Source: Prosopocoilus inquinatus (Eukaryota; Arthropoda; Insecta; Coleoptera; Lucanidae). Taken from it: DNA of 64,000 nucleotides. Of this stretch, positions 19,338 through 50,003 are shown in pieces. The notes beneath the pieces were generated by a model, which was not told the origin of the DNA, did not search any database, and saw only the letters and a list, made by a program, of their open reading frames with translations. Position 1 is the first letter of the stretch, and every line of letters begins with the position of its first letter. Both the position numbers and the translations under genes were made by a program. Location of the stretch: the NCBI GenBank assembly GCA_036172665.1, contig CM069870.1, positions 66,402,212 through 66,466,211 of the forward strand, read 5' to 3'.

Positions 19338-22300
19338 ATGGCAAAGTCTGTCTGGTTGCTGTTATTCTTCCTGTACTGTCTCGCTGAAGATTTCGCGTCA
19401 GGAAATGAAGACTCCTTCGTTTTAACCACTGAATCGAATAGTGATAAAGAAGAAGGCCCGCAGGTGTGCACACTTGCTTCAGCCAAATGAAACTTGAAAA
19501 TAAAACAGTTTTCTTCTTAGGGGGTAAATTTTGGCGATGAACTGGTGCCCAAAATCTACGAAATGCAAATAGAAAGCAACATCTCCAATCGATTTGCCCA
19601 AACGCTCATCACAAGCAAAGTGCGAAACTGGAACAATGTGGCGCGCGAAACCACTTTCTCAGTCATCCTACCCGACAAAGCCTATATTTCAGAATTCGTA
19701 ATGGTAATCGGGGGGCAAAGCTATAAGGCGTACGTGAAGGAAAAAGAGGAAGCCAAAAACATTTACAATCAGGTGAGTACTAGAAACGGTTCTGGGGCGA
19801 TTCATAATTTCCTTTTTGCTAAGGCTGTTGCCAGTGGACTTGGAGCAGCTCACGTTGCTGTAACTGCGAGGGAATCCAATCGGTTTACCGTTTCGTTAAA
19901 CGTGGAGGCTTTAAGTAAGGCGACTTTCTTGCTGAAGTACGAGGAACTGTTGAGGCTTAAAGACAACAAGTACGAATTGGTCATCAACATCCACCCCAGT
20001 CAGCCAGTCAAGGATTTGTATGTGGATGTGAGTACACTCTTTGGTATATTTCATTAAACATCACCATCACATTTTTGCAATACCAAAATTTTATTTATTT
20101 ACGATCAGAACATTGTGTAAGCAAAATTAAGCCAACCAAATAACCATTCACTATTCAAGCCACGTGGGGATAGGCATGAAGTCCTAAACCAATAAGTAGT
20201 AGAGCACAAGGTTGTGTCTACAATATTTATCTGTAGCCCTTACTCATCCATTTATTTACTACTACCATTTCGTTGCGAACTTCCACACTAAGCCAACCAC
20301 AGTCGCCACCAAAACCAGGGCAAAAAAGCCAAACTTTCCACCTGGTGCTGTCGTCGTTCCTTCTTTTGCAATTTACATTCGAGACGGAGAGGTAAACCCT
20401 AGTTTTATCAACTATGACGATGAGATCCAAAAAGCTTTTCAAATAACGGGTCAACAAGGCCAAAATCGCTTCTGAAGTCATCACTCTTCCTCTCGTTTTC
20501 CCGAATATCAACATTCGGAGTAACCATCTTGCTCGAAACCTTGTGCCATCCCAAGTGGTCACTTATTATTGTTCCAATCTGAAATGCCAGTTATTTGTGC
20601 TAAATGCCTTGTGGTCCACTGAGGATCTTTTTTAATCAAGTCACACATACACGATCAGCACCCAATTCTTTATTACATAACATGCAAGACCAATATCTCC
20701 AAGTACTGTCACCATATCTTCAAGAATTTGTTTTAATGTCAAATCTGTCTTGTGAAGATATTTAATTACAGCACGGAGTTTGCTCTTTTTCGTTACGTCC
20801 TGGTAAATTTTTTCTCCCAAGTACCTCGTCTTCGGCATTTGCAGATTTTGGTCAGCAATCTTCATCCTTTTGTCGGTTACAATCCTTCAAAAAAATAAAA
20901 ATAAAGGAAGGAATAATTGCGTCTTGAGTTTAAAGGACATCGTACCGTGTAAAGTTACTAACGTACACTCCGTACGTTTCTTCATTGTCGAAGGACGTAG
21001 GTCTTTGGACTCCAAAGCTGCGGGTTGCAGTGAATTTATCGAATATCTAGTATAGCTGTTTCGAAAACTTAATCCAACTTGCAACAAATTTTTAAATATT
21101 TAGGTAATAATAAATGAGTCGAGGCCCTTGAAATTCGTCAAGACCGCATCTCTGCGTTCAGGCAACGAAATCAGCAAACTCGACGGCGACCTAGATCCAA
21201 GAGCAAGCATCTTCCGATTGGATTCAAAATCCGCCCTCGTCCAATTTAAACCGAACATTGAGAAGCAGAAGGAGTTCGCCAGGCATCTTGGAACCGATGC
21301 GTCCAAAGGATTGTCGGGACAGTTTGTCGTACAATACGACGTACAAAGAGATCCAAACGGAGGAGAGGTGCGATTAATTATTTTTTGAAAGTTGAAAGAG
21401 CGAGGGTGCTTTTAGGTGTTGGTCAAGGACGGATATTTTGTTCACTTCTTCGCACCCAGTGAGCTCAAGCCGTTGAATAAATTCATTATATTCGTTTTGG
21501 ACACCAGCGGGAGCATGTACGGTCAAAAAATCAGCCAGTTGAAACAGGCCATGATGACAATTCTGGAGCAGTTGGATCCTAACGATTACTTCCAGATCGT
21601 TAACTTCGAAACGAACACGAAAGTCTGGAACATAATTAATCCCGGCAATAGCAGCGAAACTCCTAGACGTTTTGGCTGGTACAGAACGGAGCCAAACACC
21701 GTCGACTATACTGTGGGTACCATTACCTTGGGGGGGAAAAGCGTAAAGTAATCTCCTTTTATTTTAGAACATTGCTTTTCCGAGTGCCTTTTCCGGACAC
21801 CCCAACAATATTAAGAAGGCCAAAGAAGTGATTTTAGAGTTGCACGACGGAGGTGGTACCAATATTTACGAAGCGTTGGAAGTAGCCCTAAACCTAATCG
21901 AAGCCGAAAAAAACAGCGGAAACCATGAGTACTTACCACAACCCATAATTATGTTTTTGACTGACGGCGACGCAACTGTCGGAATCACTAATTCAGAACG
22001 AATCATAACAGACGTAAGTAATTGGAAATTGAGGATGATAACGTTCACTGTCTAAATAACTTTCCAGATAACAAATCGAAACAACGAGCAAGCTCCTATC
22101 TACAGCTTGTCGTTCGGAGACTACGCCGACAAGAATTTCTTAAAAAAATTGTCGCAAAGGAACCAGGGATTTTCGCGACACATTTACGAAGCATCAGACG
22201 CTGCACTGCAGCTTCAAAACTTCTACAAGGAAATCGCCTCACCCCTATTGAGCGGGGTCAAATTCGAATATGTTCCGGACGCGACCAGTTTGACCAAAAC

Positions 22301-29200: not shown

Positions 29201-32200
29201 TTGTGTGTACAGTTATTTGAATTTCAAGTAGTTGGGCTATTTGAAATATTTCACCATTTGAATAACCGGTCATTCGAGTATCCAAAAACCGATATTATTC
29301 GAATATCCGGTTATCCAAATAATTGGATATTCGAATAACCGAATATCCGGATAATGGGTTTTCGGTTTTGTTTAAAACCTCGGATAATCCAAAACCGGTT
29401 AACCGGTTATCCAAACAATCGATTTGGTTGCCAGCACTGATAGCAGGAAGAAGCGTTGAACGTTCGTGCAATTTTCAGTGTCCGTTTAAAGGTTGAAAAC
29501 AATTTTTATACAATTTCCATCGGACAAGAAACGACTTTAATAAAAAATATATAATTGAATTCTTGTTCTAACGAAATATGTGAGAGAAAATAGTTTTTAA
29601 ACTTTAAATGGTACACTATGAAATCGCAAGAACACTCTACGTTTCGCTATCGCTTTACAGTTTCGTCAGGAGTGAAAAAATGTAAATAAACAAATTGTCA
29701 AGAGAAACGAAAAAGTAACATGATTTTAAACTAAAATACAAGTTGTCCGGATAAACGTAAAGGTACCTAATAATAACTAAATTAGAACTAAATTAAGGTT
29801 TCTTTTTTTTGTTTCTCTTGAGTTATATTTTATTAAAAACAAGATAAACAAAAACAAACACACAAATAGTAAAATATAAACAATATCGGACATATATCAA
29901 ACTAGACTTGCCTGCATTCATATTTAATAAAAACAAAAAAGTTTTTGCCAGATCGGTCGCGATGGGTGCTACATTTTTCAAACGAAATTTTGTAAAATAA
30001 AGTGAATATGAAATTCTTTACGCGGACAAAACTGTCTAAAGTTTTGAAAGTTCGTTAATATTTAATAAAAACAAAAAAAATGTCGGCACTGCATTGAAGC
30101 CAGCCTACTGAGACTAGGGTACGCAAAGATAATAACAAAAATGACAGTTTTTTCTATTAATTATAAAAAATAAACCCAAAAAGTATATATTTTTGAAAAC
30201 AGAAAAACATCTCCTTTTAATGAGGACATTGCCTAATATGATTTAAAAAAACATAACTTTATGTTATATCTCGAAAATTTAAGTAAATATTAAGAAACCA
30301 ACTACACCGCTGAATTGTATTCCAAAAAGTCCTAATAATGTTCAAGAAGATAGCCAATTTTTATTTACACTGTTGACTTAATCTCCAAAAAAGAGATCGA
30401 GACTTGGCTACTAGTTATTTTCTATCTCTTATAGTTACGGAGATGCCCATAAGAGACATCGAAATGAATCCGCCCTGTACATTACGTTGCAAGATAGGTT
30501 CGCCCGATCAATTCAAAATGTACTTATTCCATGCACAATGATCCTTCTTGAGTTTTTGCATACGTTAATTAAAAGTTGGACTCTACGAATGATAAGTAGT
30601 AATAATTGTTATACAGACAAGGCGCGCTACCTTCTATTGTACGTCATTGGTTAATAATGACGTCACATTCATGATGCATTGATAAATATTTAAAATGCAA
30701 ATGAATTTTCACATGGTATGTTCACCTTTATAAAGAATCTCACGATGTACAGGTGTCCACCAAGTGCCTGAGTTATTGAGTTCAGTTGGGTTGGTTCCAC
30801 CTTAAAATTGGTTGGTCATAATTTAATAATTGGTCTCTCATTTTTTATTTTTTCGCTTGGTTTGAATTAACCATAATGGTTAGTTTTTTTCTATTTTTGT
30901 TTTTTTATGTCTGCTGAGTTGTCTTTGAGATGGATCGAATTTTTAATGACTTCAATTTTTTTATTCTTTTTTGGCTTCGGATAACTTGGGGTAATTTCAG
31001 TTGGATTGACTGTGAGACCGAGTGGACTTCTTTTTTAATTAATTTTTCTTATATTTTTCTTTATTTTTGAATTAATTGCTTATAAATTATTTTACACATA
31101 TTTTTTCGAAAAATCACTTCTTTAAAGAAAATCTTCTCTTTTCTTTATAATTATTTATAATTAGCAAGCTCTCGAATTTAGTGAGCAGTTCGACATTGTT
31201 TTGTTTTTGGTTTAGAATGCGTAGTACGTTGTTTTAAAATTTATTTTGAATTTAATTTTTTATTCAGTAATTTTTTGTTTTACTTCAAATTTTCATAATG
31301 TTTAATTTTTTCATGCATTTTTAATTTTTACAATTTATAATTTTTTACTTCTAATTTTTATAATTGTTACTTATTTACTTATTATATACAATGTCCATCG
31401 AGTGCCGCGGTCTTCTCCACCGTCTAAAGTATACAAGACAGAAAAGAAATTCAAACGAGCTGAGGTGTAACTCAGTCAGCTCTATTTTCTAAAATTATTT
31501 TTGGCTATACAGGATGTTCAGTAACTGAGAGGCATACCAAAGGTATATTTTTTTAAATGGAACACCCAGTATATTTTTACATATTTCGAAAGTACACATA
31601 ACGAGTAGGTACCAGAAATTTCGCAATTTATTTAAGAATTTTTAATATGTTAATAATACTGTATACGAAATTGCTCTACTTTGAGCTCTTGGAGTTTGAT
31701 TTTTTATTTACATATCATCGTGAATTTTTGTAGGTAGACAATACAATATCTCATCTACAGAAATTTCACAACAGCTGCAATCTATTAGTTATTATGTTTA
31801 CAGTGTGTTGAGTTTTGAAAAAGTTAATTTTTCTTAAAATTTTCAAATGAAACACCCAGTATATCTAAATTCTTGTGAAACACTGCCTGCCATAACGAGC
31901 TTTCATAAAACGCCAAATGTTTTTGTCCAAACTGAACAAATGGCGAAACAAAAATTACTTATTGTTTTTAATTACAATATTGACGCTTTTTAGCCTTTTC
32001 TCTCGGTCATTATGTTTTATTTTGTAGATAAATTAACAAATATTAGTTAGTTTAATTAATATACTAGAAAGTAACAAAATAATGTACAAATTAAGAATAA
32101 TAAGTACTAAATTAGAAAATAACAGAAAACAATGAACAAATTAAGAATGATAAGGAACCATTGGATCTAGAAAATTTATATTAAATATTCAAATTGTTTT

Positions 32201-35200
32201 TCAACTTCTTGTAAATACTTCTTACTTCTTGTAATCTTTACGCTAAAAGACAGTTTTGGTTTCTTTCTCCTATTAGGTGTGTCACGTCACGTAATTTTTC
32301 ATTATTAGAATCCATTTTGTTAACACAAAAAGAAGTACAAATTTGTAAAAATAGTGTCTCACTTTTCTAAACAATTGTTCTCTCAATTAAAAATTCATGG
32401 CAACTGTTTTCCTATTTTCTAGCAAACGGAAACGTAATTTTAAATTTTATTTTTTTTTAATTATTTTAATAAAGTGATTTAAATATTTTCAAAGTAAAGG
32501 AAAATAGGAGTTAGTTTAATAAAAACATATTCAATTACTTTGAACACAAAATAAAACATATTTATTCATTGATCATCTAACTGAAACAGAAAAACCGAAT
32601 GGAAAGGCTAAATAACGTTATTATTGAAAGAAAAAAAAAATATTTCATTGCTGTCTCGTGATTTCTTCAGTTTAGACAAAAACATTTGGCGTTTTATGAA
32701 AGCTCATTAAGGCAGTGTTTCACAAGAGTTTAGTCATACAGGGTGTTCCATTTGAAAATTTTGAGGAAAAAGATTTTGCAAAACTCAACACCTTATACAC
32801 ATAATAACTAACAGATTGAATCTGTTGTGAAATTTCTGTAGAAGAGATATTGTATTGACTACCTACAAAAATTCGCGATGGAATGTAAATAAATAATCAA
32901 ACTATAAAAGCTCAAAGTAGAGAATTTTTTTACACATAATCATTAATATCTTACAAACTCTTAAAAATAACTTGCGAAATGTTGTATAGCCAAAAATAAT
33001 TTTAGAAAATAGAACTGACTGAGTTACACCTCAACTCGTTCGAATTACTTTTTTATATTGTATTGTGGCGAGCCAACCTGACTTAGCGCAAGGCGTCAGG
33101 AAGTCGGTCCGCTTCGATGTGTCATAGGCCGTCACGCGTTCGGGGCCTATATGGAGCAAACTAGAATCTTCCAGAATCGAGACTTCCAGACGCCAGCAAT
33201 GATATAAAATGGCCCGGGGTTGACTCACCAGTCAGTCGAATTCGAGCAGCGATAGTCGAAGTTAGATTTTAGTGTGAAAATAAATTGTTAGAAATAAATT
33301 AGTTTTTAAACTTCATTAAATTACGGTTAAGTTTTTATCGAGTGTTTTATTCGTTTAAATAAATAAACTCAAACCCTAGAAACGTAACAGTGGTGTCAGG
33401 TGTGGGGTTTGTGCAAATAAATAAACAATTTAAAGTAAATTAAATTTAATCAGATTATTAAATAAGTACAGTAAAGAAAAAAAAAAAAAAAAAAAAAAAA
33501 CAATGGCTACGAGAAAAGTGTTGTTGAAAGACTTAAAAGTGGCCGAATTAAAAACCGAATTGGAAGAACGAGAGTTAGAAACCTGTGGTTTGAAAGGCGC
33601 ACTTCAACAGCGTCTCCGATCCGATTTGTTAACAGCTGGTGAAGATCCAGAGACGTTCCTTTTCGAAATTTCGTGTGGTCCCGTCGATTTTAATAAAATC
33701 TTGAAGGATGAATTTCGAGAACAATCCAGAAATTTAGAGGAGAAGCTTCTAGAACAATCTGGAAATTTCAAGGACGAACTTCGAGAACAATCCAGAAATT
33801 TGGACGAGAAGTTTCAAGAACAGTCTGGAAATTTAGAGAAGCTTCAAGAACAATCCAGAAATTTAGAGGAGAAGCTTCTAGAACAATCTGGAAATTTCAA
33901 GGACGAACTTCGAGAACAATCCAGAAATTTGGACGAGAAGCTTCAAGAACAATCCAGAAATTTAGAGGAGAAGCTTCTAGAACAATCTGGAAATTTCGAC
34001 AAATTACAAAATAAATTGTTGGAACAATCTAGAGACTTAGACGAGAAATTTCTAGAGCAATCCAGAAATTTCGACGAGAAACTTCTAGAACAGTCCGGAA
34101 ATTTGAAGGGTGAATTTCTAGAACAGACGAAAGGACTCGAAGATAAACTAGTGGTAAAAATATCGGAAGAAACAAGAAACCTTCAAGAAAATGTGGAAGA
34201 AATAATATTCCAGCAGGATAATAAAATCAAAAATCTGGAACAAATCATGGCGGGGTTGCGAGTGTTCGGGGATCAGCCACCAGTAGAAGTACTAGAAAAT
34301 AATGAAACCCGAATTGTGGAAGGACCAACAGAAAATTCTAAACTGAAGATAAAACCACCAACGTTCGATGGAAAGTCTTCTTGGCCCAACTACTTCAAAC
34401 AGTTCGAAGCAGCAGCAAAGGCAAACAGATGGACGGCCAGCGAAAAAGCCACTTCGTTAATTGTGGCCTTGAGAGGGGACGCTATCGATGTGCTGCAGAC
34501 GATGCCGCCAGAGGAACAAGAAGACTTCGACAAGCTGGTGAATAGGATGGAAATGCGTTACGGACAGGCCCATCTGACCGAGGTATACCATGCGCAGTTG
34601 AGGAATCGCTGTCAGAAATCCGGAGAAACTCTTCAGGAATTCGAAGCAGACGTTGCGCGTCTGGCCCAGTTGGCATATCCCACAGCTCCTGTTGAATTCC
34701 TCAAATGTTTGACGGTGCAGACCTTCATAGATGGAATCCGTGACCCAGACAACCAGCAGGCATTGAGAATGACCCATCCGAAGACGTCCAAGAACGCATT
34801 AGCTTATGCCTTGGAATTTGAAGCAGCGAGACGAGTCTCAAGAGGGCATGTCAAGGTGCGAGCGGCTATGGACTTCCAAGAGGAAGAAGAGGAAGAATCC
34901 GCTAACGCCAAGGTGGGATCTGCTATAAAGGAGCGACCCAGGGAGTATGCCACCGCCGAGGATGTTCGCCGCATTGTGGAACAGGTCCTCAAGAAGAAGA
35001 AGCCGCTGGAAAGGCCAGGACGAAGGACATGTTCGCAGGCGATGTCCAAAGCCCAGACAGGATCCAAGGAAGCCACAGTTAAACTAAGCCGGGTCGGTGC
35101 AGAGGGGCAAACGTCGACCCGTATTCAAAGGCCCTCAAAGACGAAAGCCAACCAAGTAATATCCCTACGGCAGTTAACCAGCAGTATCTTCGTGGATGTT

Positions 35201-38200
35201 ACCATTGATGACATTCCTCACACCATGTTGTTGGATACGGGTGCGACGAAGACCATCCTAAGACCCGACGTCATTAAGTCATCTGGACGCACCGAGCCGA
35301 CCAAGTGGAGACTGAAAACTGCAACTGGAACATCAGCAACTGTCCACGGTGAAGTAGAGGTTATCATCACCATTGGTTCAACTCCAATAAAACACCGTGC
35401 ACTGGTGGCAGATATAGAGGACGAGGCAATTTTGGGCATGGACGTCATGTGTGCCCACGGGTTCCAATTGGACTTAAAGCGTGGCGTGATGGCGGTCAAT
35501 AATGAGGAGTTGGTTCTACATCAACGAGGGGACGTGGCCGCTCGAGTAGTCCTCGCTGAAGACGTCGTATTACCCAGCAGGACTGAGGTTATCGTCGACG
35601 CAAAACTGGACGGTGTTTTTCAAGATGGGCAAGTCATTATGGTTGAACCTAATACTGATGATCAAAGGATTGGAAGAGGAGTCCTCGTTGGGAAAATGTT
35701 GTTGACGGCGAAGAAGGAAGTACCTGTCCGCCTGATGAACGTCAATTGTTTCTCTGTCAATATCAAGAAAGGAACAATCTTGGGAAGCTGCACCATGGTG
35801 TCCTCCATCTCCCGGCAACTTGAAACAAACGTGCCAGAAGCGAAAGTCCCAAAGAAATTATGGGAAATGGTTATGTCAACAGCCCAGGAATTGACTCCAG
35901 ACCAGAAGACAAAAGCAAAGAATCTGATCGGCCGCTATCAAGATGTATTTGAGGTAGAAAATGGATCCAAGGGAAGAACTGATGTCGTGAAACACAAAAT
36001 AGAGACTGGAGAAGAAAGACCTATCCGTCAAGCTCCAAGGCGATTACCGTTGGCGAAGCGTGAGGAAGCGGAACGCATTATTCGCGAGATGGAAAAGGAT
36101 AATGTAATAGAACCATCAAGCAGCCCGTGGGCGTCACCAGTAGTGCTTGTGAAGAAGAAGGATGGGTCCACCAGGTTCTGTGTAGACTACCGGTTACTCA
36201 ATAATGTCACCAAGAAGGACAGCTATCCCTTGCCCCGGATTGATGATACCCTGGACACCCTGGCCGGCTCAAAGATCTTCTCAACTTTGGACTTAAAGAG
36301 TGGATATTGGCAAGTGGAGCTGGCGCCCGAAGATCGAGAAAAGACGGCGTTTTCCATTGGTATGGGTCTGTGGCAGTTCACAGTGATGCCATTCGGGTTA
36401 TGTAATGCCCCAGCGACATTCGAGAGGTTAATGGAGACGGTTCTGAAAGGTCTGTCCTGGACAACGTGCATGGTGTACCTTGACGACATAATTGTCGTGG
36501 GAAAGACGTTCGACGACCACCTCAGGAACCTGGAAGGAGTGTTCCAGCGGCTTCGCGGAGCTGGACTAAAGCTTAGCCTCAAGAAGTGTCACCTGTTCCA
36601 GAAGGAAGTGAATTACCTGGGGCACATTGTTAATGGAAACGGAATCGCCGTGGACCCTGTGAAGATTCAGGTGGTGAAAGACTGGCCAACTCCCACAAAT
36701 AAACACCAAATAAGGAGTTTCCTTGGCCTGTGCACTTACTATCGGCGCTACGTTCCTGGATTTGCAGACATTGCTAAGCCGTTAACAAAACTCACTGAAG
36801 AAGGTCGTCCATTTGAATGGGACCAACAGTGTCAAATTGGCTTTGAACAACTAAAGCAGTACTTGGTTAGTGCTCCTATTCTGAGTTATCCTCTCCCGGA
36901 AGGCAAGTTCGTCGTGGACACAGATGCTAGCAACGTTGGAATTGGTGGCGTACTCTCCCAGATACAAGAGGGGCAAGAGAAGGTGATCGGCTACTTCAGT
37001 AAAGTCCTATCAAAGCCGGAACGAAACTATTGCGTCACAAGAAGGGAATTGCTAGCCGTCGTAAAAACGATAGAACACTTCTACAAGTACTTGTATGGTA
37101 GACGCTTCCTGCTGAGGACCGACCACGCCGCTCTAAAATGGCTTCTCCGTTTCAAGAACCCAGAAGGGCAAGTTGCACGATGGATCGAACGACTTCAGGA
37201 GTACGATTTTGAAATTCAGCATCGGGCAGGAACTAGCCATCGAAATGCCGATGCTCTGTCGAGAAGACCCTGTGCCGAAGACTGTAAGCACTGTAGTCGT
37301 TTGGACGAGAAAGTAGCCACGACTGCGAGGACAGCCATTGTTGATGACAAATGGCAAGGCGAAGAACTGCGAAGAGACCAGGAGAACGACCCGGATTTGA
37401 AATTAGTGCTAGAATGGAAAAGCAGGGACGCGAGGCCTACCTGGGAAGAGGTAGCGCCATGTGCACCGTCCGTAAAATCATACTGGGCGCAGTGGGACTC
37501 CATAGTGTTGGATCGTGGTCTTCTGAGACGAAGCATAGAGAATCAGGAAGGCATGGAACAGAAGACACAGTTACTGATCCCGAAGAATAGGGTGCCAGAA
37601 GTTCTGAGGGAACTTCACGATGGAACTTCGGGAGGGCATCTGGGAGTTAAGAAGACTATGGAGAAGGTGCGCGAAAGATTTTACTGGGTGAACTGCAAGG
37701 AAGACGTGAAGGAATGGTGCAGAAAGTGTACAGTCTGCGCAGCCAGTAACGGTCCCCACAGGCGGGGTAAGGCTCCCATGAGACAGTACAACGTTGGAAG
37801 TCCTTTTGAGAGAGTTGCCATCGATGTAGCCGGCCCGTTTCCAGAAACGAATGGTGGAAACAAGTACATCGTCGTGGTAATGGACTACTTTAGCAAGTGG
37901 GTTGAAGCTTACGCCCTACCTAACCAAGAGGCAGTCACTATTGCGGAAGTCCTTGTCAGGGAATGGATCAGTCGGTATGGTGCACCTATGGAACTGCATT
38001 CAGACCAAGGAAGGAACTTTGAATCGGCCTTGTTCAAGAACGTGTGTACTCTGCTCGGCGTACGAAAAACTAGAACAACTGCACTCCACCCACAGTCGGA
38101 CGGAATGGTGGAAAGGTTCAATAGAACCATCAACCGACATTTGTCCAAGGTCGTTTCCAATCATCAGAGGGACTGGGACACGTACATCCCCCTATTTCTA

Positions 38201-41200
38201 ATGGCATACCGCTCATCTGTTCATGAGACAACAGGGGAGACTCCCGCGAAAGTGGTATTCGGGCGAGAGCCGAGACTGCCCTGCGACCTGAAGTTTGGTG
38301 TGAAGCCTGGCGAAGTCTCTGCCGACGAAGATTACGTGAGCAAATTACGCAGGAAAATGGATGATATCCACAACCAAGTGCGTCACAATATACAGACGGC
38401 CAGCGATCGGATGAAGGAGCACTATGACATCAACGCTCAACACGGGGGATACCAACCTGGAGCACTGGTCTGGCTTTATAACCCCCAAAGACGTCGAGGC
38501 CTCTCCCCAAAATTACAGACCTCTTGGGAAGGTCCTTACAAAGTGATGAAACGGATCAACGACGTCGTTTACCGCATCAAGAAGGTCCCCCATGGCAAAC
38601 CCAAAGTAATCCACTTCAACCGGATAGCCCCTTACCATGGAGAAGCAGATGAAGGGACAGTACAAAGAGCGCAAGTTTCCGAAGTGAACTTCGAAACCTT
38701 CATGTCTCATCACGCCGAAGGAAGCAAGGCACGGTTTGGAGTGACCACGGAGAAGCAACAAGATCTCTTTAAAGTGCCACTGGAGTACAGTCTGGCCCAC
38801 TGCGTAGCAGAAGACCTGAAAATGTCCAAAGGAATCGCTCAGGTGTTTAAGAAGAAATTTGGCCAAATCGAGGAGCTACGAAGACAGCATCCCGTGGTAG
38901 GCAAGAGCTTGCAGATCATTGATTCGACGGCAGATCGGAGGCGCCACGTGCATTATTTAGTCACTAAGAAGACATCAAGCGGTAAACCTGACTATGTGAC
39001 TATGTGGAGAGCCCTATATAGCCTGAGGAGACAGCTAATAGAGAACCATCAGATGAAGTTAGCCATCCCCAAATTGGGCTGCGGATTGGACGGACTAGAC
39101 TGGAGAGTAATTCGAAGCATGCTGGAAGTCATCTTCCACAGAACGGGAATTGAAGTCCTAGTCTGCAGCCACCACCCACAGGCAACAGTCAGCAACAGCA
39201 AAACCGTGGACTGTTACTTCTTCCAGGCGGGAAGTTGCAAGAATGGGCCAGCATGTAGATTCCGACACCCTCCTTCAAGACTATCACCAGGAACATTTCG
39301 AGACGAAACGTTTCTAAGAAGGGGGCAGTGTGGCGAGCCAACCTGACTTAGCGCAAGGCGTCAGGAAGTCGGTCCGCTTCGATGTGTCATAGGCCGTCAC
39401 GCGTTCGGGGCCTATATGGAGCAAACTAGAATCTTCCAGAATCGAGACTTCCAGACGCCAGCAATGATATAAAATGGCCCGGGGTTGACTCACCAGTCAG
39501 TCGAATTCGAGCAGCGATAGTCGAAGTTAGATTTTAGTGTGAAAATAAATTGTTAGAAATAAATTAGTTTTTAAACTTCATTAAATTACGGTTAAGTTTT
39601 TATCGAGTGTTTTATTCGTTTAAATAAATAAACTCAAACCCTAGAAACGTAACAGTATAGTTTAGACGGTAGAGAAGACCGCGGCACTCGGTAGACACCC
39701 TGTATATACTGATTACATTTTAAGCAAATAAGTAGTTAAACATATTTATCAACACAACATGCGTCTGACGTTATCATTAACGAATGACGTGCAACGGAAT
39801 GTAGCGCGCCTTGCCTATGTACGGAATCCTCAAGAAGTGTGTTCTCGGGCAATATCTCAATTCTCAATAACGAAATTACAGAAATAGTTTCAACACAATT
39901 TCGTTTTAAAACTTGTATTCTTCTACTGCATGTTCATGTTGACTCTGAATAGGTGATGATCAACGAGTCGATGCCGCTCAAGTTTATTAGAACCGCACCT
40001 TTACGTTCAGGCACCGAAATTAGCAAACTTGAAAGCGACTTAGATCCAAGAGCAAGCATCTTTCGATTTAATACAAAATCCGCCCTCGTCCAGTTTAAAC
40101 CGAACATTGAAAGGCAAAAGGAGCTTGCCGAGTATCTTGGGACAGATGTGTCCAAAGGACTATCAGGGCAATTCGTTGTGCAATACGACGTGGAAAGAGA
40201 TCCACAAGGCGGAGAAGTAAGCCCCCAATTACTTTCTTGTGCGTCATCATCGAGAGTGCACTTTTCTAGGTGTTGGTCAAAGACGGATATTTTGTTCATT
40301 TCTTCGCACCCAGTGAAATCAAACCGTTGAACAAATTCGTAGTGTTCGTTTTGGACACGGGTGGGAACATGAAGGGGCAAAAGATCGCCCAATTAACACT
40401 GGCGATGGCTACGATTTTGGACGAATTAGATCCCGACGATTATTTCCACATCCTAAGTTTTGGGGCACAGACGGAAGTCTGGAACATATCCACCGGAATG
40501 CCAAACGATTTGGGATCGTATGCGAGGCAGAACTACACGGGTGTTACCGTAAGGACCACGATTCAAAAGAAAAGAAAAACAACGCGAAGCTGCTTCATTT
40601 TAGAACATGGATTTTCCAGTTGCTTTTCCAGGACATTCCATTAACATCGATAACGCCAAAGAGGTGATATTAAATTTGCGTAGTGATGGCGGAAGTAACA
40701 TTTATGAAGCCTTGCAAATAGCTTTGAGCCTAGTTGAAGTAGAGAAGACCAAAGTAAACCATGAGCATCCACCACAACCAATAATTATGTTTCTCACTAA
40801 CGGAAAGCCGACTGGCATTAGTTACACCGAGAAAATCATAACAGATGCAAGTCCAGTTTATTTTGGCACATTCACAATATATTTTTCTAAATTTACAGAT
40901 AACCAATCGAAACGGCGAGCAAACTCCTATTTATAGCTTATCGTTCGGAGACGATGCCGACAAGAACTTCTTAAAAGAATTGTCGCAAAAGAATTACGGC
41001 TTTTCACGACACATTTACGAATCGTTCGATGCCGCACTGCAAGTGAAAAACTTCTACAAAGAAATCGCCTCACCCCTACTTAGTGGGGTCAAATTCGAAT
41101 ATGTTCCAGACGCAACCAGTTTGACGAAAACCAGATTTCCACTTCACTTCGGCGGATCAGAACTCGTAGTGGCTGGCAAACTACGTAAAGAACACGGATT

Positions 41201-46990: not shown

Positions 46991-47721
46991 GAGTTTGTAA
47001 GATATAGCAACGTAAAGATCAATAAGGTTTGCATTTCGAAAATTAAAGTTATTTTTATCATTGTTTCTTAAGAAGGAGTTGGTTTGTGCAATTTCATGAA
47101 GAACATCAATATAAAGACAAGGGCGATGGCCATCTTCACGAACAAGCGGCAGATCTTCTTCTCTATATACATTCACCAATAGTTTATCATTAGTGAGAAT
47201 TAAATCCAAAATTCAAAATTTTCAACATTATTATTCTGCGTTAAATTATTGAAAGGCATAAATTGTAAAAAAGTGCTGAATAAATTTGTAGTTCTCAAGC
47301 CTAGAGAACAATCCAAACATTCTGGTATATTAAAATCCCCCACAATAATAACCGGTTCAGAGAAATTGATAGCAGTATCTAGATAATCCAGAAGTATGAC
47401 GTAATCATTTACTTGTGTAGACGGAGGTAAGTATATAATAACAACCTTTACTGCTGCTAAGACATCAATGCCTAAGACAGGAGATACCAAATTCAGATTA
47501 TAAGAGTTTAAATTTTGTTTTATGGCAGCCAATACACCACCACCTCTACCAGACGCTCTATCACTTCTATATACCATGAAGAGTTCAGGAAATAATTCGT
47601 TGGAATGTATATGAGAATGAATCCATGTTTCCGATAATACTATTATATCAACATCACATTCACAACAGTTAACAAAAAATTCTGATATTTCAGTATTAAG
47701 ACCCCACACATTTTGATACAA
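46934..47721 (-). pseudogene. ORF2 endonuclease of a minus-strand CR1/jockey-like element, truncated
   Basis: The frame 47721-47200 has the endonuclease signatures Gln-Asn-Val-Trp-Gly-Leu, Leu-Ser-Glu-Thr-Trp-Ile, Ser-Asp-Arg...Gly-Gly-Gly-Val, Tyr-Leu-Pro-Pro-Ser and Val-Gly-Asp-Phe-Asn. After a frameshift, 47209-46934 continues with Asp-Leu-Ile-Leu-Thr-Asn and Pro-Leu-Val-Arg-Glu-Asp-Gly-His. No reverse transcriptase follows. The copy stops where the LIR2-family fragment begins. Confidence 0.8.
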
Positions 47722-47759
47722 AATTTCATACTTACAAGACTGTACTATCTGTTGGGATT

Positions 47760-50003
47760 CTATTCGTTTTTTGCATTCGGCATTATTTTAGGCACGCCTT
47801 TTACAAACTTTAAATGTATATTTTTCTCACCCTTGGTAACTCTATTGTTAAATTCCGTTCTAAATGCATACGCATCCTTTTGTTGCGCAGGAGTAAGGTC
47901 CTCTGTTAAGTAAATGCAATTCTTGGACCGGGGCTTTTTGCGCAAGACAGTACGTGCTGTAAACGGAGTATCAAAGATTACTTTAATTAATCGAGCCCTA
48001 CTTGAATTAAATTTCCTAATGCGTGTAACTGCCAAGATTACTGAGGTGTCACTTCCAGGCAAGGTTGGAAAGTTTAAAACAAACTTTTTAAAACGTAGTG
48101 TTTAAAATATGTTTAAAACACCTAATTAAAAACATACCACCTGTTTTAAACAAAATGTTTTTTTTTGATAATGTTTTAAATTCATTTTTTGTAATTTTAA
48201 GCTAAAAAGAACTCTTTTGATATAAGTGCTTTATTTTTAAGTTTTAAACATGTTTTTCTGTTAATGTTTTAAATTCATTTTTTTAGTTTTAAGCTAAAAA
48301 GAACACTTTTGATTTATCTGTTTTATTTTTGCAACGTAATACTGTGTAACCAGAAGTTAATTGTTTAGGGTCTGTATTTCACTGATAGATTAACTTTAAA
48401 CTTTTGTTTGTTCTCATATCAATTATTTTAATAATTGTAGACAATGCGTGGCTGAGCTGATGACGTGATGACCAAGGAGCGGATGACCTGAGGTTTTACT
48501 TAAGGTTATTCAAACCGTAATCATTATATTAAAATTATTTTTATGGAATCTTGTAAGTAAATTTATTTTATATTATATACACATTCATTCAACGACTTAT
48601 AAGGTCTCGGGCAATGCAAATCGCCTGCATGCGTCATCAGAAACCTCAATTCCGCCGCTCGCTGGTCATGACTACACTGTAGCTCTGATTTGAACTAAAT
48701 TTAAATTGCATTAGATTGATTATAATCAATTCATTAATTATTACTGATTACTAGAATAATACTTATATTGTAACATTTTAAAATACCTTTTCAATATTTA
48801 ACCTTTTATTATTACATTAAGTTTACAACATACTGGGTCCTCCGCTTCCCTGTTCATACTATGGGCTACGGGGTGAGTTATTATGTAGCAAACTGGCTTG
48901 AATTTGTCAATGTTAATGCAATGTTAGGTCGAAAAGTGATCGTAGGACGTCGCTATTTAAACTATTTATAACATTATCGTTTCATTTGTCTTCATTGAAC
49001 TTCTACCGTGTGTCCCAAGGCTGTATATTTGCCCTTCTAGAATTTTAAGGTTTGTTTAAAATTTGAAACGATGAATTAAACAAAAATTTAATTTGAATTT
49101 TCAGACATATACCTACTGGACTTTTGGTTTCGCCGGAAGTAATATCAACTTTGTTATTTTAAATGGAACATTCTACATGTTTTTACATATTTGAAATGTT
49201 TGTTTTCCAGTATTGAAAGCCACGAGTCATGTATTTTAGTTCTAATGCGATTAAGTAATTTGAAAAAAATACTTCTTTGGATTGTATTTGATTTTAGTTT
49301 TTATTGGGAATGTTTTTCTCAGTATGTTGATACCAATACTTCATACTTTCTTTGAAAATCATTTAAAACACCGCGACCGAAGATCCTAAATAAATCAAGC
49401 TCTGCCTTAAATGATTTAAATTATTATCAAAGTACATACATTATTTTTAAAAAGGAACATAATCTAACATTACAAAACTTTTAGAGATTGAATTTTAATA
49501 AATCCTTCTTTTTACACAAATATCAAATAATAATAATAATAATATGTATCTTTTTATGTAAGCTGTAAGGGCAATTTAAATATCTAAAAGTTGTTTTAAA
49601 CAGCTGTTTTTTTTTTTGTTTAAAACATGTTTAATTTAGGGTCAATTTTAAACATGTTTTAAACAAAAAAAAAACTGTTTAAAACAAAAAAAAGCAGAAG
49701 TTTTGTTATTTTTTTAAAAAACCAGTTTTTTCCAACCCTGTTTCCAGATAGCAATGGTGATAATAATTTTTTTATTGACTCATAATCCGCCTCTTTTTGA
49801 GTAACATCAACAGCCCTGGATTCAGCGATACCACTAATTTTTATGTTGTTCGCCCTTCTAATTCGGTCAGCCCCCTCTTGAATTATAAATTCATCATTAT
49901 TTGAGTTTACCCGTAATATCTCATTATTAGCGTTCACATTATCGGACTTTAACAGTTCAGTTTCTTCTCGCAGTTTTTTGCTTTCAACAATTAAATCGCT
50001 CAT
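47760..50003 (-). pseudogene. ORF1 of the minus-strand non-LTR element, split by a hAT-like insertion
   Basis: The N-terminal part (50003 to about 49749) reads as a coiled coil followed by Arg-Arg-Ala-Asn-Asn-Ile-Lys-Ile-Ser-Gly-Ile, the start of an RRM-like domain. The C-terminal part (48051 to 47760) reads Val-Ile-Leu-Ala-Val-Thr-Arg-Ile, then Lys-Val-Ile-Phe-Asp-Thr and Ile-Tyr-Leu-Thr-Glu-Asp-Leu-Thr-Pro. This is the ORF1 nucleic-acid-binding arrangement of CR1/jockey-type elements. Both parts are colinear once 48060-49740 is disregarded. ORF2 starts just downstream. Confidence 0.75.
48060..49740. mobile_element. 1681-bp hAT-like non-autonomous element
   Basis: Termini CAAGGTTGGAAAG and TTTTTTCCAACCCTG are inverted repeats (CA(A/G)GGTTGGAAA). 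Flanks CTTCCAGG (48052-48059) and TTTCCAGA (49741-49748) match at 6 of 8 positions as an 8-bp target duplication. Sub-terminal regions are full of GTTTTAAAC/GTTTAAAAC palindromic words, as in many hAT elements. No transposase frame. It contains one copy of the TAGGTCRAAAAG...GTCGCTATTT repeat near 48920-48963. Confidence 0.75.

Follow-up and report, generated by a model that had tools for sequence, protein, structure and literature searches.

Accessory domains in gypsy elements and macrodomains in viruses are both already known, and captured domains have precedents in pol: the retroviral dUTPase is a captured enzyme found, in some lentiviruses, between RNase H and integrase, and chromodomains sit behind the integrase in chromoviruses. 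Here we describe a stretch of 64,000 nucleotides (the window; C2:66402212-66466211, contig CM069870.1) from the 649.6-Mb, 173-contig genome of the beetle Prosopocoilus inquinatus. It contains a recently active Ty3/gypsy retrotransposon, and the C-terminal part of its polyprotein is a macrodomain of the TARG1 class. According to a review, TARG1-class enzymes take ADP-ribose off acidic residues through a Lys/Asp dyad, with Lys84 and residue 125 as the catalytic pair of TARG1 (PMC7050489); residue 125 is called Glu in that text and is Asp in the sequences. A second paper has uracil- and thymine-linked ADP-ribose reversed by TARG1 and TARG1-like enzymes, with human, Drosophila and bacterial examples (PMC13036486), and a third places TARG1-like domains in numerous viral genomes, few of them with all essential residues (PMC4245714).

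Compared with these enzymes (TARG1/OARD1/C6orf130, the ALC1-like macrodomain hydrolases), the window domain has the same fold, a similar length and 37-38% identity to human TARG1 in structural alignments. A preliminary description of this DNA had claimed a TARG1/OARD1-class macrodomain with a dyad at Lys1822 and Asp1863 and had proposed structural comparison as a check; the structural match was found, and the two residues align with Lys84 and Asp125. Structure prediction was confined to the window type. The dyad is kept in the alignment in 36 of 36 window-type sequences (group A), in all four of group B, both of group C and both RNA-virus sequences. Taken alone, the Pfam macrodomain match of the window element falls short of the Pfam cut-off. 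In trees the domain is placed among OARD1-like sequences, the rows being TARG1-like only and the deep forks open. Unlike TARG1/OARD1, it lies in a retrotransposon polyprotein, has Ala at the position of Ser35 and is followed by a CCCH zinc finger; unlike the DarG antitoxin macrodomain, it scores far under the DarG cut-off of 250 bits. It resembles RNA-virus macrodomains in being an ADP-ribose domain within a polyprotein. Examples belong to P0031 and P0033, polyproteins with viral methyltransferase, helicase and RNA-dependent RNA polymerase, whose TARG1-like macrodomains are 45-47% identical to the window's, and to Kadipiro virus VP8, with 43% identity. Thrips-associated virga-like and negev-like viruses also show a fold match, at 23-27% in the named rows.

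The element that carries the domain has the following parts (window coordinates).

33060-33063 (left) and 39655-39658 (right), no strand: target site duplication GTAT, from flank inspection and comparison with the empty site
33064-33389, plus strand: 5' long terminal repeat (LTR), 326 bp, TGTGGC...GTAACA
33391-33407, plus strand: putative primer binding site TGGTGTCAGGTGTGGGG, from sequence
33503-39346, plus strand: single gag-pol open frame, 1947 residues from ATG
33524-33622, plus strand: SAP domain at the gag N-terminus (PF02037, 25.1 bits against a cut-off of 23.9)
33681-34177, plus strand: 33-base repeats encoding a charged 11-residue unit
34331-34873, plus strand: gag core, homologous to gag of Aromia elements
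35192-35449, plus strand: aspartyl protease (Pfam)
36149-36631, plus strand: reverse transcriptase (RT; Pfam, with Ty3 as best solved-structure match)
36896-37204, plus strand: RNase H (Pfam)
37577-38083, plus strand: integrase H2C2 and core (Pfam)
38531-38632, plus strand: integrase C-terminal domain, p58_C (Pfam)
38726-39178, plus strand: TARG1/OARD1-class macrodomain
38966-38968, plus strand: Lys1822 codon, counterpart of TARG1 Lys84 (alignment)
39089-39091, plus strand: Asp1863 codon, counterpart of TARG1 Asp125 (alignment)
39200-39274, plus strand: CCCH zinc finger, C-terminal to the macrodomain (27.0 bits against a cut-off of 20.5)
39316-39328, plus strand: polypurine tract, in frame, encoding the LRRGQC tail, from sequence
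39329-39654, plus strand: 3' LTR, identical to the 5' LTR, containing the stop codon (39344-39346)

Paired TG...CA LTRs, a short duplication and the pol order protease, RT, RNase H, integrase place the element in Ty3/gypsy (Metaviridae), and among solved structures its RT is closest to Ty3 (4ol8, E 3.1e-94). It departs from the usual Ty3/gypsy plan in having a macrodomain and a CCCH finger behind the integrase and a SAP domain in gag, and a pattern scan found no CCHC knuckle anywhere in the frame. The post-integrase frame consists of macrodomain and CCCH finger and then stops inside the LTR, with no env as in errantiviruses, and the 21 Pfam families that match at E up to 0.1 include no chromodomain. 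The charged repeat region of gag is probably a coiled coil; similarity varies among its 11-residue units. Since the frame crosses the polypurine tract and stops inside the 3' LTR, there is no host sequence at all between macrodomain and LTR. The LRRGQC tail that the tract encodes is found again in several relatives. The retrotransposon sits in one of the two arms of an inverted-repeat element; the second arm keeps the empty site, and the joined retrotransposon flanks match that empty arm at 117 of 131 positions. The host of the insertion is a long foldback-like inverted-repeat element (window 31383-33063 and 39655-39706).

The macrodomain is present in other copies of the element in the same genome. 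A search with the last 248 residues of the frame gave 1526 candidates, of which 150 were scored; all 150 match at 98-100%, 147 of the matches are free of stops, and 32 belong to open frames at least 1900 residues long. In the 20 copies that were fetched, the 3' LTR always stands at the frame end and the flanks are different throughout. Both LTRs were located in 19 of them, all 19 with matching, AT-rich 4-bp duplications, and 13 of these LTR pairs do not differ at any position. The macrodomain therefore travels with a recently active element. The inspected copies, being the best-scoring, lean to young and intact ones, and the tail query reveals only those family copies that have the macrodomain. 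Matches on C5 and C6 include pairs of equal length and similar spacing, several Mb apart on one contig; these may have arisen by segmental duplication or in the assembly, in which case the number of copies is overestimated.

The preliminary description had further held that the domain is cargo of the element, lying between integrase and 3' LTR within one frame of a young element, and not host read-through. The identical LTRs, the anatomy, the copies and the relatives described below all bear this out. Host read-through is rejected by the LTRs and duplications of the window element and its copies. A private fusion, which by that description would follow if every other copy lacked the domain, is rejected as well, as the domain is present in the 150 tail copies and in window-type relatives in other species.

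Residues 1745-1970 were searched against 5.8 billion proteins, with 33 matches: 29 window-type proteins, two gypsy proteins with the domain elsewhere and the two RNA-virus polyproteins mentioned above. The window-type matches come from Aromia moschata (23), five other assemblies and one contig catalogued as Erysiphe pulchra, a fungus. In all 29, integrase sequence directly precedes the macrodomain, which is the arrangement that the preliminary description had suggested seeking in other genomes. The Erysiphe pulchra protein (P0026) is a window-type pol, probably with gag-like sequence behind it, and its contig is perhaps insect contamination in circular or tandem form. A profile search, among the best 120 of 2406 matches, adds shorter entries from Brassicogethes aeneus, Pyrocoelia pectoralis, Aromia and Macrosteles quadrilineatus; the first three are beetles of different superfamilies and the last is a leafhopper. 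The leafhopper protein (P0099) is annotated as OARD1-like and groups with the retrotransposon macrodomains, which points to a piece of an element or a domesticated one, and annotators should be warned of such labels.

Thirteen window-type rows form one group in two macrodomain trees (support 100/99 and 90/93). Identity to the window element is 53-61% in the macrodomain (10 scanned relatives) and 76-83% in RT-RNase H (the five with RT). A full-length RT-RNase H match is confined to the five non-Aromia assembly proteins, with 45 residues in P0026; the Aromia gene models are without RT-RNase H, as judged from the models and not from DNA. The CCCH pattern is present in 10 of 10 window-type relatives scanned and is lost from at least P0028 and P0029. 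Across the 11 scanned rows, window included, the CCHC knuckle pattern was not found and the CCCH pattern was present in 11 of 11. The CCCH finger may replace CCHC for nucleic-acid binding, which is a guess, as several scanned rows lack gag.

As to placement behind the integrase, the preliminary description was right for the window type and too narrow for gypsy elements at large, where the domain stands at several places in pol. It lies between RNase H and integrase in group B (P0032, P0034, P0155 and P0156), before the protease in P0157 and at the N-terminus in P0158 of the thrips Megalurothrips usitatus. The beetle genome itself holds further types: a fly OARD1 query returns as its top matches other long-frame elements, ahead of the host gene. 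Three of them (L086, L087 and L090) show the order protease, macrodomain, RT, RNase H, integrase; L088 has the macrodomain behind the integrase and lacks a CCCH pattern; L089 is a short frame with protease and macrodomain; and the 3' part of L092 contains a relative of L090. The protease in these elements is a weak match or a DTG motif only, and LTR-like repeats were not found in L086, L088 and L090, whose stretches may fall short of both ends. IMG/VR gave five loci at 23-36%. The element domain can be compared with the retroviral dUTPase and the chromoviral chromodomain as a captured domain in pol, and the group B position is that of the dUTPase; its predicted activity differs from theirs.

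RT-RNase H identity to the window element falls from 60% in L088 to 49-50% in L086/L087, 43-46% in L090/L092, 44-46% in group B, 42% in P0157 and 27% in P0158, with yeast Ty3 at 39%. The RT tree joins L088 and the window type as sisters (99/99), in keeping with a single gain of the macrodomain in their common ancestor. L086 and L087 group with group B (98/97) despite a different macrodomain position, so the domain moved or was gained again there. In the second macrodomain tree group B is split, with P0032 beside the window type at weak support (91/57). Several placements in distant gypsy lineages are thus observed. Independent captures are likely, and graded no higher because approximately unbiased (AU) tests among groups A, B and C and P0157 do not reject a single macrodomain clade (A+B+C, p 0.137; A+B, p 0.508; A+P0157, p 0.113). 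No macrodomain-free close relative appeared among the 112 matches to the L088 integrase that were scored, out of 4642 candidates; 8 of the 112 stand at 92-100% and 104 at 43%; the latter are taken for the window family, as they come from places recurring in the tail search.

The source genome also has OARD1-like genes of its own. Locus L091 (C5:3750900-3755200) contains parts of two in tandem, and in the second a GT...AG intron splits the macrodomain at the Arg codon of NFR|QQFK. In contrast to this gene, the element macrodomain is intron-free, and all element macrodomains inspected are open and uninterrupted across this point, which fits uptake from spliced RNA; an ancient intron-less gene is an alternative donor. 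Recent capture from this host's own gene finds no support: the L091 genes join none of the element families, although resolution is poor in that region of the tree.

Selection could be gauged in the D family. Between L086 and L087 the macrodomain has dN (nonsynonymous divergence) 0.203 and dS (synonymous divergence) 1.508, a ratio of 0.134 (Nei-Gojobori), as against 0.033 for RT-RNase H, 0.025 for integrase, and 0.36 and 0.19 for the linkers. The macrodomain is thus under constraint, weaker than on the core enzymes and stronger than on the linkers. In dS it exceeds RT (0.478) threefold and comes close to integrase (1.668), and the pair is 97% identical in RT-RNase H and 66% in the macrodomain, which suggests that the segments have different histories, for example through exchange between elements. 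In the window family, 35 of 40 copies were used (39 placed, four dropped for at least 150 differences, one not placed); they come from the best-score list, biased to intact frames, and the signal is too weak to use.

We favor, with a probability of about 0.6, the explanation that the pol-borne domain reverses PARP-type marks set by the host on element proteins, RNA or cDNA. The preliminary description had likewise suggested counter-defence against host PARP activity, or removal of ADP-ribose from the DNA or proteins of the element itself; both would be in line with the sequence. Produced in the single gag-pol chain, the macrodomain would travel with the pol products into the particle, either fused to integrase or released by the protease. 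Its Lys/Asp dyad would hydrolyse ADP-ribose off acidic side chains or off thymine or uracil bases, and host ADP-ribosylation of element proteins, RNA or cDNA would thereby be removed en route to integration, to the benefit of the element. Activity, localization, substrate and benefit are here predicted from sequence. In favor of this explanation stand the fold and dyad, the copies with LTRs and duplications, the integrase sequence ahead of the macrodomain in all 29 window-type matches, the other pol positions in distant families and the macrodomain ratio of 0.134 in the D family. The varied placements suggest that membership of pol matters more than a fixed tie to integrase. A background observation in keeping with this proposal comes from parp-1 null Drosophila, in which five of eight significantly changed mobile elements go up and a further ten increase on weak statistics, nine of these latter ten being members of the gypsy superfamily (PMC7712786). 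Several points weigh against it. The authors of that study allow that the parp-1 effect on mobile elements may be indirect (PMC7712786). The D-family macrodomain is less constrained than RT and integrase, at a dS of 1.5 that is near saturation, and in the 35 window-family copies, with few variants, the macrodomain ratio of 0.52 is not below that of integrase (0.32). Finally, the position of TARG1 Ser35, an active-site residue, is Ala in 35 of 36 window-type sequences and a gap in the remaining one; the 114 other alignment rows have Ser 66 times, Ala 31 times and Gly 17 times.

It could be instead that the macrodomain recognizes chromatin or repair factors that carry ADP-ribose and guides the integrase there, much as a chromodomain might. 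Its position behind the integrase in the window family and L088 and the adjoining CCCH finger in the window family are consistent with this, yet mere binding should not need the catalytic dyad that is kept throughout groups A, B, C and the RNA viruses, and other families place the domain elsewhere, either after the protease and before RT or in the stretch from RNase H to integrase; we consider guidance unlikely. Human TARG1 structures are also titled O-acetyl-ADP-ribose deacetylase 1, so that deacylation of O-acetyl-ADP-ribose or a similar free compound might help reverse transcription by clearing that compound. This seems to us quite improbable, as the genome already has OARD1-like host genes and we know of no link between such metabolites and retrotransposition.

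Could the domain simply be a captured host exon, hitch-hiking without function? The family is young, with little time for decay, and no clear selection signal is seen within it. Set against this, relatives at 53-61% identity retain both the open frame and the dyad, the ratio is 0.134 in another family and several placements occur in distant lineages, and we hold a functionless passenger to be very improbable. The possibility that the similarity is due to chance, or that a host gene became joined to the element, has nothing in its favor beyond the Pfam score under its cut-off and is contradicted by the LTRs and duplications of the window element and its copies; we give it hardly any credence.

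Elsewhere in the window, a frame with a VIT domain (19521-20057) is perhaps a piece of a host inter-alpha-trypsin-inhibitor-like gene, and frames for a reverse transcriptase (1646-2650) and an endonuclease (47200-47787) are probably remnants of non-LTR elements. Rfam and tRNA scans of the window gave no matches.

The literature searched (titles and the beginnings of abstracts, with most subscription journals and bioRxiv outside its coverage) yielded no retrotransposon with a TARG1-like hydrolase. The TARG1-like macrodomain marks a new type of accessory domain for LTR elements, and its various placements supply TARG1-like enzymes from nature on which the substrates of the class (acidic residues, thymine and uracil) can be tested. 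It is tempting to speculate, though we regard it as doubtful, that insects hold LTR retrotransposons in check through ADP-ribosylation of element proteins, RNA or cDNA, and that gypsy elements responded by repeatedly acquiring a TARG1-type hydrolase in pol, at three or four different positions, as some RNA viruses did. The parallel known to us for ADP-ribosylation as an antiviral weapon comes from RNA viruses; if the macrodomain is an active hydrolase that clears this mark, ADP-ribosylation would be a host weapon against retrotransposons in insects.

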